38,283 nucleotides of DNA from Planctomycetales bacterium (GTDB taxonomy: Bacteria; Planctomycetota; JAKEIC01), in assembly GCA_022614695.1 (NCBI GenBank), contig JAKEIC010000001.1, positions 1-38,283 on the forward strand. The letters run 5' to 3'. The notes under the pieces were generated by a model. It made no database searches. It had not been told where the DNA came from and was given only the letters and a program-made list of their open reading frames with translations. The translations under genes and the position numbers were made by a program. Positions 3,224 to 27,541 of the stretch are shown here, piece by piece (position 1 is the stretch's first letter; each line of letters begins with the position of its first letter).

Positions 3224-3236
3224 TGACACACTGTCA
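3224..3236 (+). repeat. Palindromic motif TGACACACTGTCA (copy 1 of 4)
   Basis: Read directly; spans the stop codon of the 3234..3743 gene. Confidence 0.75.
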
Positions 3237-3745: not shown

Positions 3746-4402
3746 TCAACGCCGAGGCCCCTTGGCGCGCCGTAGCGCCCACGTGAACAGCGCCGCCGGA
3801 CGCCGCACAAGCAGGGCCTCCGAGGCGAGCCGATCCACCAACCCGCGCGAGTGATGAGCAGGGTCGTACTCCCGCCGGAGCGCGGGCACGAGCGTGTACC
3901 CTTTCATCTTCCGCTTTAGCAGGTCCACGAGGTCGACTGGCGGCCCGGCTGGACGCCCCTCGGCGAGGCGGCGACGCAGGAGTTGCGCCACGACCTCCGG
4001 CGGTCGGGGCTCCCACCCCTGAGACGAGAGATCATCCCCACTCCCGACCGGACGCTCCTCGGGCGGCTCTCCTCCGGTGGGCGAGTCCGTCGCGGGCTGT
4101 CGGTCTTTGGGTACGCTTGTGCGAGCGAAGCCACCCGGGGGAGTCCCCAACGGTTTCGGGTGACGGATCGGAAGCGTGGGTCCGGCACGATTCGTCCGCC
4201 GTCGAGCGTCGCTCGGCGAGGTCTGGTCCCTCGGATCTTGGTGCTCGTAGTTGGCTCGAGGAGCGTGATCGTGGGGCTCGCTCGCTGCGCTCGCGCGCCC
4301 TAGCCGCCTTGCGGCGGCTTCAGGAGTCCTCCCGGAGCCCCCGAGTTCTGGCCCGCCGGCCACCCGATGTAACAGTGTGTCACCGCCCTCCCGGCGTCTC
4401 AC
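3746..4402 (-). CDS. Hypothetical protein, second gene of the Rep-like operon
   Basis: ATGA overlap (4399-4402) with the upstream gene; ORF through 3746. Confidence 0.6.
   Translation of the reverse strand: MRRREGGDTLLHRVAGGPELGGSGRTPEAAARRLGRASAASEPHDHAPRANYEHQDPRDQTSPSDARRRTNRAGPTLPIRHPKPLGTPPGGFARTSVPKDRQPATDSPTGGEPPEERPVGSGDDLSSQGWEPRPPEVVAQLLRRRLAEGRPAGPPVDLVDLLKRKMKGYTLVPALRREYDPAHHSRGLVDRLASEALLVRRPAALFTWALRRAKGPRR
4370..4382 (-). repeat. Palindromic motif TGACACACTGTTA (copy 2 of 4, minus strand)
   Basis: Plus strand TAACAGTGTGTCA. Confidence 0.65.
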
Positions 4403-5595
4403 ACGCCCACGTACCTCGTCGGCCGCGAGACACGTTCGCGCTTCTCGGCACGCCGCCTCGCCTCCGCCGGTCGCCCCAAGCGCCGGAGCCCAACCTCACG
4501 CGCGCGGGCGAGATCGGTGAGATACGGCACGAGATGAAGGAACTCGAACGCCCGCGGGAACCAAGCACCCAAGAACCGCCGCCGAAGCCCGAAGCCCGGG
4601 TGAAGCCCGTACACGCCACGGAGGGCGCGGCTTTCGTAGCCTCCATCGAGCAGCCCATCACGGAAGATCCAGAGCCGCCGGACCCCAGGCTCGTACGTCA
4701 GAGCGTCGAGCGCGGCGAACGCGGCCCTCGCCGTCAGCGGGTGCCACCGCGCGCGGCGATCCCGCAGGTGAGCCCGCTCGTCCACATACGGTTTGGACCA
4801 GTACCGGATCCAGCCCGCGTTTACGGGGCCGCCGCCGTCGGGCCACGCGAAGAAGGGAGCCCCCAGGCGACCGAAGGCGAGGTCGGCAGCCCTCAGCGCG
4901 ACGTGCGGCTCGACCAACAGCAAGCCGTGGACGTGCACGAGCAGGGGCGGCGGGTCGTCGCCGTGGAACTGCGCGATCTCGACCTTGAGGCCGGAGCCCT
5001 CGATCAGGCGATGCTCGGCGAGGAAGGGGCGAAGATCCCCTGACACACTGTCAAGGCGGTCGCGGAGGTACGCGGCGCTGAAGTCCTCTACGGGGCAGGG
5101 CGGGAAGGCCCAGGTGGGGGCGAGACGGTCCAAGCCCGCCCACCGCTCCATGACCGCGATCACCTGCCGCACTACAGGCCCGAGGTCCACCCGGACGCAC
5201 TCGCCGCACCCAAGGTGGCGGCACCCAGGGACGATCCTGCCGTCCTCGTCGAGGCAGGACTCCCCCCGCAGCACACGGCGGTGGCGCTCGCAGAAGGGCA
5301 GGTCCGGGAAAGGGGTGGGGGAATAGACTAGGGGCTTGGGGCTCACGGTGGCGCTCCCGATCGGCCTGCCCGGCGGGGGACGGCCGGGAGCGCCAACTCC
5401 ACACCGCGCCCCCGCCGGGCTGACCTCGACGGACCGGGGAATGGTCGCATCGACTGGACGCCCCGTCAAGGGGCAGAACGCCCCATCCCATTGCCACCAC
5501 GTTACTTGAGTTGCTGTCGGGTGGCGCGGAACCTCGCCGGTCGGCCCCCGGATCACGGGCTCGCCTCGCGCCCCGAGTGAACCTATCCGTAGCAT
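4399..5595 (-). CDS. Putative HUH / rolling-circle-replication Rep-like protein
   Basis: N-terminal Cys/His cluster (FCERH...CRHLGCGEC), then a hydrophobic segment, an HUH-like 'PPLLVHVHGLLLVE', and 'AGWIRYWSKPYV' in the position of the Rep catalytic-Tyr motif. ATG at 5595 preferred over the track start at 5673. Confidence 0.5.
   Translation of the reverse strand: MLRIGSLGARGEPVIRGPTGEVPRHPTATQVTWWQWDGAFCPLTGRPVDATIPRSVEVSPAGARCGVGAPGRPPPGRPIGSATVSPKPLVYSPTPFPDLPFCERHRRVLRGESCLDEDGRIVPGCRHLGCGECVRVDLGPVVRQVIAVMERWAGLDRLAPTWAFPPCPVEDFSAAYLRDRLDSVSGDLRPFLAEHRLIEGSGLKVEIAQFHGDDPPPLLVHVHGLLLVEPHVALRAADLAFGRLGAPFFAWPDGGGPVNAGWIRYWSKPYVDERAHLRDRRARWHPLTARAAFAALDALTYEPGVRRLWIFRDGLLDGGYESRALRGVYGLHPGFGLRRRFLGAWFPRAFEFLHLVPYLTDLARAREVGLRRLGRPAEARRRAEKRERVSRPTRYVGV
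5041..5053 (+). repeat. Palindromic motif TGACACACTGTCA (copy 3 of 4), inside the Rep-like gene
   Basis: Read directly; encodes D-S-V-S on the minus strand. Confidence 0.75.
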
Positions 5596-5635
5596 GAGGG
5601 TTAAATCATCAGGCACGAAAGCCCGGGAGGCTGTC

Positions 5636-6016
5636 ATGGGGTGCGGGGCGCGGAAGTTCGAGCGGCCGTTCATCGGCGCATGGCCGTGGGACGGGCTGCC
5701 CGACGAGGCCGAGTTGTGGGTCGCCGGTGGGCCACGGACGCTCCGCCGAACATCCTGGGTGAGCGGCGGGCCGGGGGTCGTGGCCGAGTACCGGGAGGCT
5801 GTGGCCCGGAACTCGCTTCACTTGAAGGTCCGAGAGGACTGGACGTACCGCGCCGATCACGTGGACCGGGTGAACCCCGACGGCGACGCGGCGCTCGCGC
5901 CGGTCGCCCACTTCCTGCAGGACACCGACCTCGGCTGCGCCATCGCCGCGGGCGCGAAGGTCGCGGCGGGGATCCTGGTCTTGGCCGCGATCATCGGCGC
6001 GGTGTCGAAGGCGTAG
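5636..6016 (+). CDS. Small protein with C-terminal transmembrane segment, first gene of the SIR2 cassette
   Basis: ATG at 5636 preceded by GGGAGG; C-terminus 'AIAAGAKVAAGILVLAAIIGAVSKA'. Confidence 0.65.
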   Translation: MGCGARKFERPFIGAWPWDGLPDEAELWVAGGPRTLRRTSWVSGGPGVVAEYREAVARNSLHLKVREDWTYRADHVDRVNPDGDAALAPVAHFLQDTDLGCAIAAGAKVAAGILVLAAIIGAVSKA

Positions 6017-6045
6017 TTCCAGCCGGAACTGGAAGGGACAGGCGG

Positions 6046-6288
6046 ATGCCGCTCTCATCAAGCAAGAAGGACGAGATCCTGCAGCACCTTCGGTCCAAGG
6101 TGAACGGTCCATGCCCCATGTGCGGTCAGGGGAATCGGGGTCTCGACGAGAACCTCTCGTTCCTCGGGATCCTTGATCCCGAGTACAAGCAGCCGGTCGC
6201 CGGTGGCCTCTTTCCGGTGGTCGTGGTCACCTGCGCGAACTGCCATTACGTCTCACTGTTCGCAGCGATGCCTCTCCACGCGGTCTGA
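6046..6288 (+). CDS. Small zinc-ribbon protein
   Basis: MPLSSSKKDEILQHLRSKVNGPCPMCGQGN...VVVTCANCHYV (CPMC...CANC); TGATG overlap with the SIR2-like gene. Confidence 0.75.
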   Translation: MPLSSSKKDEILQHLRSKVNGPCPMCGQGNRGLDENLSFLGILDPEYKQPVAGGLFPVVVVTCANCHYVSLFAAMPLHAV

Positions 6289-7172
6289 TGCGCGTTGCAC
6301 TGTTCGGCGCCGGCGTCAGCGTGGACTGCGGGGCAGTCACTCCGCGGCCCCCGCCCCTGGGTCGAGACCTGTTCGACCCTCTCCATCGCCTCTACCCGGG
6401 CTGGCGGAGTGTGCCGGCGGACGAGGTGGCGCTGTTCCGCGACAACTTTGAGGACGGAATGAACGCTGTGCTCCAGAAGTTCGGGATGGCGGTGGCGCCC
6501 CTCATGCAGGAGATGGCGGTCTTCTTCTCGATCTTCGCCATCCCGGCGTCGGGCGAGAACCGCTACGTGACCTTGCTCGAACGAGCGCGTAAGCACCGAG
6601 TGCTTTGGAGCACCCTGAACTACGAGTGCCTCCTGGAGTGCGCTGCCGCCCGTCTTGGGAGGTCGGTCGCGTACTTCGCGGATCCAGCCGATGACTCGGT
6701 CCCCGTCTGGAAACTGCACGGCTCCTGCAACTTTCGGGTCACCGGGCTGGCAGCAGGCCGCGGCGTGTCGTTCGGCACCGGCGTGACAGTGGGTGGCGGA
6801 ATCGAGCCGATGGACCTGCCACAGGTCCGCGAGTGGTGCGCTGGCGACAACGCGCTGTACCCTGCCATGTCGCTCTACGCGGCGGGCAAGCCCATCGTGA
6901 TGTCCCCGGGTCCGGTGCAAGATGCGCAGTCCCGATGGGCGCGGCACGTGTTGGAGAGCGAGCGCGTCCTGCTCATCGGCATCAACCCGCACGGTCCAGA
7001 CGGACACGTATGGGGGCCGCTCGCGACCACACCCGCGGAGGTCGCCTGCATCGGGAACGAGGCGGCGTTCACCGCATGGGCGTCGGCAAACCGCGGAGGC
7101 CGTCCAACCAAGTTCTTCGGCAGCCGGTGGTCGCGCTCCGAGCGGGCCGCAGCGGACTTCCTGACAGCGTAG
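6288..7172 (+). CDS. SIR2-like domain protein
   Basis: 'LFGAGVSVDCGA' (GAGxS), 'STLNYECLLE' (TxNY-type), 'PVWKLHGSCNF' (KLHGS): the SIR2/NAD-binding signature series. Confidence 0.8.
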   Translation: MRVALFGAGVSVDCGAVTPRPPPLGRDLFDPLHRLYPGWRSVPADEVALFRDNFEDGMNAVLQKFGMAVAPLMQEMAVFFSIFAIPASGENRYVTLLERARKHRVLWSTLNYECLLECAAARLGRSVAYFADPADDSVPVWKLHGSCNFRVTGLAAGRGVSFGTGVTVGGGIEPMDLPQVREWCAGDNALYPAMSLYAAGKPIVMSPGPVQDAQSRWARHVLESERVLLIGINPHGPDGHVWGPLATTPAEVACIGNEAAFTAWASANRGGRPTKFFGSRWSRSERAAADFLTA

Positions 7173-7282: not shown

Positions 7283-8035
7283 TTACGCGGGAGGGCTCGC
7301 ACCGGGTGGCCCGGTGAAGTTGAAGGACGCCCAGGTGCCTGCGTCCCGTATCGGAGTCGGGAGCGCCTTCACTCTCGCCGTGACGAGAATGGCCTCGACA
7401 GCCGTGAGGCTCCCACCGATCCCGACCGTGACATGCTGCCAGCCGGCGCACCGAACCGGCGAGTCCTTGCAGAAGTCGAACGAGACCCCGTCGATGATAG
7501 CGACGTAGTCGTCCTCGGTGTGCAGCCCGTTCGCGTGAAACGAGTTTCGGATGAATGCCGGAACCAGAAGCCGGGTCTCCTGGGTGCTCGGGTCTACGGC
7601 CTGCGTCGCGACGACCACGGCCTTCGCGATCTTGCGGAAGCCCCAGGGCACTTTCTGACCGAGCGCCCGGAGCACGTTTGAGAGCAGGTTCTCGACCTGA
7701 AACTGATACCACGTGAGCGTCGAGAGCCGCGAGTGTATTTCCCATCCTTCGCACATCGCTTCGAGCGCCGGGGGAGGGATCTTGGTCGCCCCGATGAGGG
7801 CGGCGAACTGCTGCGCACTCATGCGCCGGCCTTGGAGTTGGCCGAGGACGCTCACCGTGATGATGGCGGACTCGACGCCCTGGCGGGCGTTGGCGAGTGC
7901 GATGCTCCTCGCATCCTCAACCGGGTACGCTGTGCCCGCCGTTGCGAGGCGCCGGTGCAGCGCGACGAGTCCGTCACGGAAGGCCGGCCAGTCTGGATCC
8001 GCGTCGTAGGTGAGGGGGCGGCGAGGTTCAGCCAT
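7283..8035 (-). CDS. HEPN-like / abortive-infection-like protein
   Basis: Helical N-terminal part; 'FIRNSFHANGLHTEDD' resembles RN..H-N-G motifs of HEPN-related families. Confidence 0.5.
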   Translation of the reverse strand: MAEPRRPLTYDADPDWPAFRDGLVALHRRLATAGTAYPVEDARSIALANARQGVESAIITVSVLGQLQGRRMSAQQFAALIGATKIPPPALEAMCEGWEIHSRLSTLTWYQFQVENLLSNVLRALGQKVPWGFRKIAKAVVVATQAVDPSTQETRLLVPAFIRNSFHANGLHTEDDYVAIIDGVSFDFCKDSPVRCAGWQHVTVGIGGSLTAVEAILVTARVKALPTPIRDAGTWASFNFTGPPGASPPA

Positions 8036-8141
8036 CCGGCTCCTCAATCCTGCCGGCGACGTTCGCGTCCCCGCCGAGGACCGTGGCGTCGCTGGGACCG
8101 ACCGTCACGCCGTCGGGCTCCAACCCCTCGGACTCGTCCAT
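8028..8141 (-). CDS. Possible 37-aa acidic small ORF overlapping the start of the HEPN-like gene
   Basis: MDESEGLEPDGVTVGPSDATVLGGDANVAGRIEEPDG; strong GC3 bias; 8-nt overlap with the next start. No clear Shine-Dalgarno. Confidence 0.3.
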   Translation of the reverse strand: MDESEGLEPDGVTVGPSDATVLGGDANVAGRIEEPDG

Positions 8142-25308: not shown

Positions 25309-25510
25309 GTGTGCGCCCGGGGCCGGGCGACCCCTCCCCGGTTCTCGCTCCATGCTCGTCTTCAGCTCGCAGCCTAGCGCGACGGGGCTCCCGAGCGGCG
25401 GTATGACGTTCGAGCGTTGACGGGGGCCCGGACGCTTCGGAGAATCCGGCTCTCCGCGTCCGCCCCAGGAGATGTCTCCACGGGAGCGGCCGGGAGGTGG
25501 GAGGCGCCTC

Positions 25511-27541
25511 ATGGGCCTGTTCCGGCTCGGCGAGATCCTCGGGCTCGGCCTCTCCGTGCTCGGGCTCGTCGTGGTCGGCTCGCCGGGCTGCATGCGACCG
25601 AGAGCGCGCGCCACCCCGGCCGCTCCGACGAGCCACTTGTCCGGATCGGCCGCGACGGGCGCGGGGGCTGTGGCGGCGGCCCCGGTGCCCGCGTCGCTCG
25701 ACTCGGAGCAGCCGTGCCGGCCGCTCGAGCCGGACGAGGAGGTCGTCCTCGGACCCGGCACCAGCTTCGTCATGCGAAAGCACTCCGTGTTCAAGGAGCT
25801 GGCCCACGAGTCCACGGTCTACCAGCGCTGGCGGATCCTCGAGTTCGAGGCCGCCACGGGGAAGGTCCGGATCCGGCTGGAGACCGCGGCCGAGGGCGGA
25901 CGGGCGACTCTCAGCGACCCGATGGAGCAGACGGCGATGTACGTGACGGCGGGCGACGAGCCGCTCGAGATCGTCGAGGTCCCGGCGGGGCGGATCCGGT
26001 GCAAGAGGACCCACACGGTCACGCAGGCCGGGCGCTTCATCATGGACTCGTGGCAGGCCCCGGTCCTCCCGAACTGGGTCCACGTCCGACAGGTGACGGA
26101 CTCGCCGCAGCTCCGCTCCGTCGAGGAGCTGCTGCGCGTCGAGAACGCGTCCGTCGCTCCGCCGGGGACTCGCGAGGCCAAGAGAAAGGCGGAGGCTGGG
26201 GCAGCGCTGGCGGAAGCCCGCAAGCTCCGGGCGGCGCGGTCGGGCCCTGCGGTGACCGTCGGCGCGGACGAGCGCCTCGAGCTGGCCGTCGGGACGCGGT
26301 TCACGAGCGAGACCGTGACCGAGATGAGGGTCGGCTTCCAGATGACCATGACCATGCTCGCCGAAGCCACGGTCATGGCGCTCGATGAGAGGAAGCTGAC
26401 CCTGAGGACGATCATGACCACGAAAACCGGAGGGACCGAGAACACGACCGAGACCTCGATGGAGCTGGAGCGCGCCGGGCTGAACCAGGCCCTGGAGGGC
26501 GCCGCGGAGGTCATCGAGGTGCCGGCCGGGAAGTTCCGGTGCCGAAAGAGCCGGTCCGAGTCGATGATGCAGGGCAAGCGCATGGTGATGGAGCACTGGA
26601 TGGCGCCGGGGATCCCGGTCCCCGTCCGCTCGGAGATCTCGGGGGACTTCCAGTCCAGCGTGACAGTCCTCGAACGCATCGAGAACGCGCGGACCGTCCC
26701 GGCGGGCGCCGCGCCGACGCCCCTCTCGAGCGCGCCGAAGCCCGGCCCGGCGGAGGTGTCGAAGGGCGTCCCGCAGCCGGCCGGCGCCCCGGGCGTCCCT
26801 CGGAACGCGTTCATCCTGGTCGTCGGGGTCGGGACCTTCGGCGACGGCAAGCTCCCGTCGCTCCGGTTCGCAGAGGCCGACGCGCGTTCGGTGTTCGCGT
26901 TCTGCTCAACCGAGCGGCGAAGCCCGGCCGATCCCGATCGCGTCCAGCTCCTGGTGGGGAAGGCGGCGACGAGGCAGAGGATCCTCGACGCGGTCCGCGA
27001 CCACCTCGTCAAGAAGGCGACGCACCCCGAGGATCTGGCCGTCCTCTACTTCTCCGGTCATGCCCTGATGGAGGGCGGGGAGACCTACCTCGCCTGCTCG
27101 GGCACGGAGCCCGGGGAACTCGCGATCACCGGGCTCCCGCTCCGGGAGCTCGGGGCCGCCTGGGCGTCGATCCGGGCCGGCCGCCGAGTCCTGATCGCCG
27201 ACGCGTGCCGGATCGGCGACGTCGGACGCGCCCGCGGGACCGGGCGGATCAACCTGTCAGCGGGCGACGGGGAGTCGGCGCCGGGATCCCTCCACCTGCT
27301 CGCCTCGGGTCCCGAGCAGCCGTCCACCGAGGATGAGCAGCTCGGGCAGGGAGTGTTCACGACGGCGCTCCTGAAGGGCCTCCGCGGCGAGGCGGAGAGT
27401 GATGCGGACGGCAGGGTGTCCTCCTCGGAGCTGGCGGAGTACCTCGAGGCCGAGGTGCCGAGGCTCGCCGCCGCGGCCGGGGGAGCCCAGACGCCGGTCG
27501 CGCGAGGCGCCGACCGCCCCGGGTTCTACCTCACGCGATAG
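25511..27541 (+). CDS. Secreted/lipoprotein caspase-like (peptidase C14) protein with two related N-terminal beta-rich domains
   Basis: Lipobox-like 'VVVGSPGC'; 'DLAVLYFSGHALMEGG' and 'VLIADACRIGD' (His/Cys dyad); two copies of a domain ending '..IVEVPAGRIRCKR'/'..VIEVPAGKFRCRK'. Confidence 0.8.
   Translation: MGLFRLGEILGLGLSVLGLVVVGSPGCMRPRARATPAAPTSHLSGSAATGAGAVAAAPVPASLDSEQPCRPLEPDEEVVLGPGTSFVMRKHSVFKELAHESTVYQRWRILEFEAATGKVRIRLETAAEGGRATLSDPMEQTAMYVTAGDEPLEIVEVPAGRIRCKRTHTVTQAGRFIMDSWQAPVLPNWVHVRQVTDSPQLRSVEELLRVENASVAPPGTREAKRKAEAGAALAEARKLRAARSGPAVTVGADERLELAVGTRFTSETVTEMRVGFQMTMTMLAEATVMALDERKLTLRTIMTTKTGGTENTTETSMELERAGLNQALEGAAEVIEVPAGKFRCRKSRSESMMQGKRMVMEHWMAPGIPVPVRSEISGDFQSSVTVLERIENARTVPAGAAPTPLSSAPKPGPAEVSKGVPQPAGAPGVPRNAFILVVGVGTFGDGKLPSLRFAEADARSVFAFCSTERRSPADPDRVQLLVGKAATRQRILDAVRDHLVKKATHPEDLAVLYFSGHALMEGGETYLACSGTEPGELAITGLPLRELGAAWASIRAGRRVLIADACRIGDVGRARGTGRINLSAGDGESAPGSLHLLASGPEQPSTEDEQLGQGVFTTALLKGLRGEAESDADGRVSSSELAEYLEAEVPRLAAAAGGAQTPVARGADRPGFYLTR

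Follow-up and report, generated by a model that had tools for sequence, protein, structure and literature searches.

SIR2 NADases recur among anti-phage effectors and usually contain, or are paired with, large sensor proteins; SIR2 domains are also able to catalyse other NAD-dependent reactions. In DSR2 (N133 and H171; PMC10981675) and, at equivalent positions, in FAM118B (N163 and H206; PMC12700824), cleavage of NAD requires an asparagine and a histidine. A different group, the SLATT-type two-helix pore effectors, was predicted by Burroughs, Aravind and colleagues (PMC7159879). In the open-access literature, we found no description of a zinc ribbon paired with SIR2 or with a two-helix membrane protein (2TM). 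Here we analyzed a compact cassette that combines a small zinc ribbon with a SIR2-like protein. It lies in a window of 38,283 nucleotides, the whole stretch of DNA analyzed, which corresponds to contig 34 among the 369 of a draft genome of 5.0 Mb.

The cassette comprises three genes on the forward strand. Gene 1 (P0001, positions 5636..6016) encodes a tail-anchored protein of 126 aa, gene 2 (P0002, 6046..6288) an 80-aa four-cysteine zinc ribbon, and gene 3 (P0003, 6288..7172) a single-domain SIR2-like protein of 294 aa, predicted to be an NADase. Genes 1 and 2 are separated by 29 nt, and the last base of the P0002 stop codon TGA (6286-6288) is the first base of the SIR2 ATG, forming a TGATG overlap at 6286..6290. 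This co-directional layout had been described in a first-pass annotation, and its coordinates, strand, gap and overlap were all verified, together with the motifs it listed (GAGVS, TLNYE and KLHGS in the SIR2-like protein, CPMC...CANC in P0002). Shine-Dalgarno-like sequences precede genes 1 and 2 (GGGAGG; GGAAGGGA) and are absent from the region upstream of P0003. Given this absence and the TGATG overlap, translation of the SIR2 gene is likely coupled to that of the zinc-ribbon gene. A scan for promoters and terminators found none.

At the GC content of the window (72%), chance open frames are common in Markov shuffles: frames of 126 aa arose in 137/300 shuffles, of 80 aa in 184/300 and of SIR2 length in 7/300. 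Since chance frames as long as genes 1 and 2 appear in about half of the shuffles, length is no proof of a gene, and homology was used instead. Leave-one-out profiles recovered gene 1 at E=4.6e-17 and P0002 at E=4e-16, against a best shuffle of about 2. The three genes are real; each belongs to a genuine but rare, unnamed family and is present in a single copy across the 5.0-Mb draft genome. Gene calls in the relatives were mechanical, and one phylum supplied most of the related sequences.

P0003 carries the motifs GAGVS at residue 7, TLNYE at 109 (N111), KLHGS at 142 (H144) and GINPHGPDGH at 231; its cysteines, at 14, 114, 118, 147, 184 and 254, form no CxxC. Its direct score against Pfam SIR2_2 is 16.3 bits, and that of P0004 20.1 bits, both under the curated cut-off of 24.5. 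Full-length relatives sharing 33-36% identity were found on a Halorubrum hochsteinianum plasmid (NZ_CP098416.1) and a Halomicroarcula rubra contig (NZ_RKLR01000016.1), and all three subfamily members keep the GAG motif, the LNY Asn (N111), H144 and KxHGSCNF. A subfamily profile built from P0003, P0004 and P0008 recovered the proteins L067 (E=2.6e-13) and L088 (2e-6), which both exceed the SIR2_2 cut-off, and in hhalign comparisons the subfamily reached 98.8% with L067 and L088 and 86% with a more distant set of five SIR2_2 proteins. Based on these intermediates, the profile-profile comparison and the kept motifs, we accepted P0003 as SIR2-like, tied to Pfam SIR2_2 only via intermediates. N111 and H144 correspond to the NAD-cleavage residues of DSR2 and FAM118B, and from these residues and the SIR2 precedent we infer an NADase activity for P0003. 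The proposal that gene 3 is a SIR2-like protein with NADase residues thus held. An AlphaFold model of P0003 from a two-row alignment reached a pLDDT of 41, too low for a reliable model or a judgement of the NAD pocket; its fold matches include SIR2/HerA and sirtuins at E 0.08 or worse, none significant. Searching PDB sequences with the SIR2 protein gave no match.

The P0003 subfamily is very sparse. Other members were absent from 392 genomes of the phylum, and the scan of the cassette's own class covered two genomes only; the 294 genomes from the class of Halomicroarcula held two full-length members and the distant L067 protein. Four queries against viral contigs (P0003, P0004, the alignment of the two and P0008) recovered no relatives, and P0003 relatives were absent from phage records. 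Both close haloarchaeal relatives stand alone, with neither the zinc ribbon nor gene 1 adjoining. A search of the whole of genome G392, made without a positive control there, found no zinc ribbon.

The zinc ribbon has a wider reach. With cysteines at 23, 26, 63 and 66, P0002 was placed by the leave-one-out profile in the P0006 family (motif CPxC...P....C..C), which is present in 22 of the 392 genomes of the phylum, as well as on 2.7-kb mobilizable plasmids of E. coli and Salmonella (14 of 5,426 E. coli genomes). Viral contigs searched with P0002 and P0006 contained no relatives, PDB sequences yielded chance-level matches only, and an AlphaFold model of the zinc ribbon alone was too weak for interpretation. 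We inspected up to 8 kb, shorter at contig ends, around 27 other chromosomal zinc-ribbon loci. The first-pass annotation had suggested that the zinc ribbon could be a sensor or regulator of SIR2, and had named a lack of conservation beside SIR2 as refuting. For a fixed pair of the two, this refutation applies: relatives of the P0003 SIR2 adjoin the zinc ribbon at 0/27 of these loci, and the zinc ribbon adjoins SIR2 at 0/25 SIR2-like loci. We therefore rejected P0002 as a conserved SIR2 partner; the exact trio and the pair of zinc ribbon and SIR2 are not conserved (n=1).

What does recur is a membrane protein. The zinc ribbon lies immediately 5' of a two-helix membrane protein at 5 of the 27 chromosomal loci and on the 2.7-kb E. 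coli/Salmonella plasmid, at spacings of -4 nt (E. coli plasmid, L052), -11 (L040, L053), +9 (L055) and +6 (L058), so that stop and start codons often overlap. Of the suggested association of zinc ribbon, membrane protein and SIR2, one part was upheld: the family recurs beside small membrane proteins, but the SIR2 subfamily occurs elsewhere without it. The two-helix partners measure ~134-170 aa and match no named effector family in Pfam; they are homologous among the plasmids, L052 and L055, and those of L040, L053 and L058 have no detectable sequence similarity to them. P0002 differs in its setting, with a SIR2 gene 3' and a one-helix membrane protein gene 5'. In one family (f23), the chromosomal surroundings of the zinc ribbon are conserved; a kinase gene mostly precedes it, and it has no membrane or SIR2 partner. 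At another locus (L057, 1837-2840), a HEPN protein gene, one small frame and the zinc ribbon follow one another closely. On plasmid NZ_CP028604.1 (1180-1853), the unnamed pair of zinc ribbon and 2TM overlaps by 4 nt and is nearly the sole annotated cargo of such 2.7-kb plasmids. A PIN domain suspected by eye two genes behind the zinc ribbon of L041 was not confirmed by Pfam on a 67-aa fragment.

The single hydrophobic stretch of gene 1 spans residues 102-120, with a mean hydropathy of 2.3, in agreement with the C-terminal segment reported earlier. Gene 1 belongs to a small unnamed family with the motif YR....NS.H....H.D..N.....P..H...D, and is unmatched in Pfam, PADLOC, NCBIfam and PHROGs. Its full-length relatives are two copies in one genome, G085 (L102 and L103; 41-42% identity), with more distant look-alikes at L106 and L108. 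Both G085 copies sit in defence islands. In one island (L109), an AAA_13 (PDC-S06) gene adjoins the relative, and a PLD-SNF2 helicase and a phage-type integrase are also present; the other (L110) combines a PLD-SNF2 helicase with an HD-domain gene and a restriction gene of type IIG/Eco57I. Near these relatives, the zinc ribbon and SIR2 of the P0002 and P0003 families are both absent.

The GC contents of the genes are unequal: 61% for the zinc-ribbon gene, 68% for the SIR2 gene and 73% for gene 1, against 72% for the window. The lower values of genes 2 and 3 relative to gene 1 suggest separate histories, in which genes 2 and 3 at least may have been acquired from outside. Chromosomal genes, uvrB among them, are also present on the contig. 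On the reverse strand, 3.3 kb upstream of the cassette, is a HEPN_AbiU2-like gene (1600-2298; E=1e-5, slightly under the Pfam cut-off). PADLOC reported nothing for the three cassette genes. Matches in PHROGs were limited to partial, weak ones. Several further features were seen in the window. A 424-aa protein on the reverse strand (4399-5673), with no Pfam match, contains LLVHVHGLLL, which resembles the HUH motif of rolling-circle replication and transposition proteins; near its gene, the palindrome TGACACACTGTCA is present at 3224 and again at 5041, and a partial copy at 4365 is inverted. A 254-aa protein (7283-8047, reverse strand), whose gene converges with that of SIR2, has no Pfam hit and includes RNSFHAN, resembling the HEPN RNase motif. 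A caspase-domain protein (Peptidase_C14; PADLOC caspase) is encoded at 25472-27541 on the forward strand.

We consider the most likely reading, held with somewhat less than even confidence, to be that P0003 is a SIR2 NADase effector and the zinc ribbon its cognate regulator. The cassette would have been acquired horizontally and would serve in conflict, probably against phages; once activated, P0003 would hydrolyse NAD+ and arrest the growth of the infected cell. The defence islands around the gene 1 relatives, the nearby HEPN_AbiU2-like gene and the lower GC of genes 2 and 3 favour this reading; the single occurrence of the trio, the empty PADLOC result and the f23 loci count against it. P0003 consists of a bare SIR2 domain with no obvious built-in sensor, and the zinc ribbon, whose coupled translation immediately precedes that of P0003, may bind P0003, hold it silent and relay or release its activation. 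The family elsewhere precedes two-helix proteins in the same coupled layout, which leads us to view it as a portable handler and SIR2 as a substituted effector. Tail-anchored gene 1 would be a loosely attached accessory that may place the complex at the membrane or report membrane damage; against its inclusion, its relatives occur without either partner and its GC content is unlike that of genes 2 and 3. Best supported is the translational tie of a SIR2 effector to a zinc ribbon that is elsewhere tied to membrane proteins. What survives is thus a modular picture, in which a zinc-ribbon gene is translationally coupled to a toxin-like effector and a probable NADase here replaces the membrane protein. 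The wider generalization, in which small conflict systems share a portable zinc-ribbon control module that swaps effectors, typically by coupling (two-helix proteins, possibly HEPN/PIN-like RNases and here a SIR2 NADase), strikes us as rather doubtful.

The strongest rival, which we judge a lesser but real possibility, has SIR2 acting alone, as its solitary haloarchaeal relatives suggest it may, with the zinc ribbon and gene 1 as independent neighbours in an accessory patch and the TGATG as incidental compaction. The zero counts at both the zinc-ribbon and the SIR2-like loci, and the occurrence of gene 1 relatives apart from both families, fit this explanation. However, a one-base overlap without a Shine-Dalgarno sequence points to a dependence of SIR2 translation on the zinc-ribbon gene, and the zinc ribbon shows the same coupled layout with other partners. 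That layout, with a small gene first and a larger effector second, would also suit a toxin-antitoxin-like pair, in which the zinc ribbon is a labile antitoxin of SIR2 (elsewhere, of the two-helix protein) and the pair maintains mobile DNA rather than sensing phages. The near-exclusive place of the 2TM pair among the annotated cargo of mobilizable plasmids and the zinc ribbon found behind a HEPN gene are in line with such a role, yet no DNA-binding domain for autoregulation was found and the cassette resides on a contig with chromosomal genes; we hold this explanation to be unlikely.

Both of these alternatives concern the partnership; another concerns the enzyme, and would make P0003 an ADP-ribosyltransferase, a deacylase or a regulatory NAD-binding sensor instead of an NADase effector. 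The broader NAD-dependent repertoire of SIR2 domains allows for this, but P0003 has no zinc module and its subfamily was found only in its own genome and haloarchaea, which argues against a conserved housekeeping deacylase. We consider this alternative very improbable.

Control of a bare SIR2 domain by an 80-aa zinc ribbon, if it occurs, would keep such a toxin in check with an unusually small protein. If the portable-module reading is true, these loci would represent an undescribed class of modular effector-handler systems, ranging from chromosomes to tiny enterobacterial plasmids. With a family member on a 2.7-kb E. coli plasmid, the function of these small proteins could be studied in a convenient laboratory system.

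Compared with the SIR2 anti-phage effectors ThsA, DSR1/DSR2, SIR2-HerA and SIR2-APAZ, P0003 has the catalytic Asn and His in common and likewise no zinc module; the four-cysteine module of canonical sirtuin deacylases is missing from it, as from DSR2 and NADase-type SIR2. Unlike those effectors, it is a single domain beside a zinc ribbon. It lacks the SLOG domain of Thoeris, and the scanned neighbours include no TIR or Thoeris match; the long C-terminal sensor extension of DSR1/DSR2 is absent from its 294 aa; and neither the HerA ATPase of SIR2-HerA nor the Argonaute of SIR2-APAZ/pAgo is found among the scanned adjacent genes. The stand-alone haloarchaeal genes are of the same subfamily, full length and share the N and H motifs, but come without the zinc ribbon or gene 1. 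SLATT-type effectors resemble the zinc ribbon's usual partners in size and in having two helices, and no such protein is encoded in this window. In the pairs of zinc ribbon and 2TM, no tail-anchored first gene was seen and a two-helix membrane partner takes the place of SIR2. These pairs, on the E. coli/Salmonella plasmid (pTA144-3) and at the five chromosomal loci, are nevertheless like the cassette in their zinc-ribbon family, in placing the zinc ribbon first and in having a partner gene that overlaps or nearly overlaps it.
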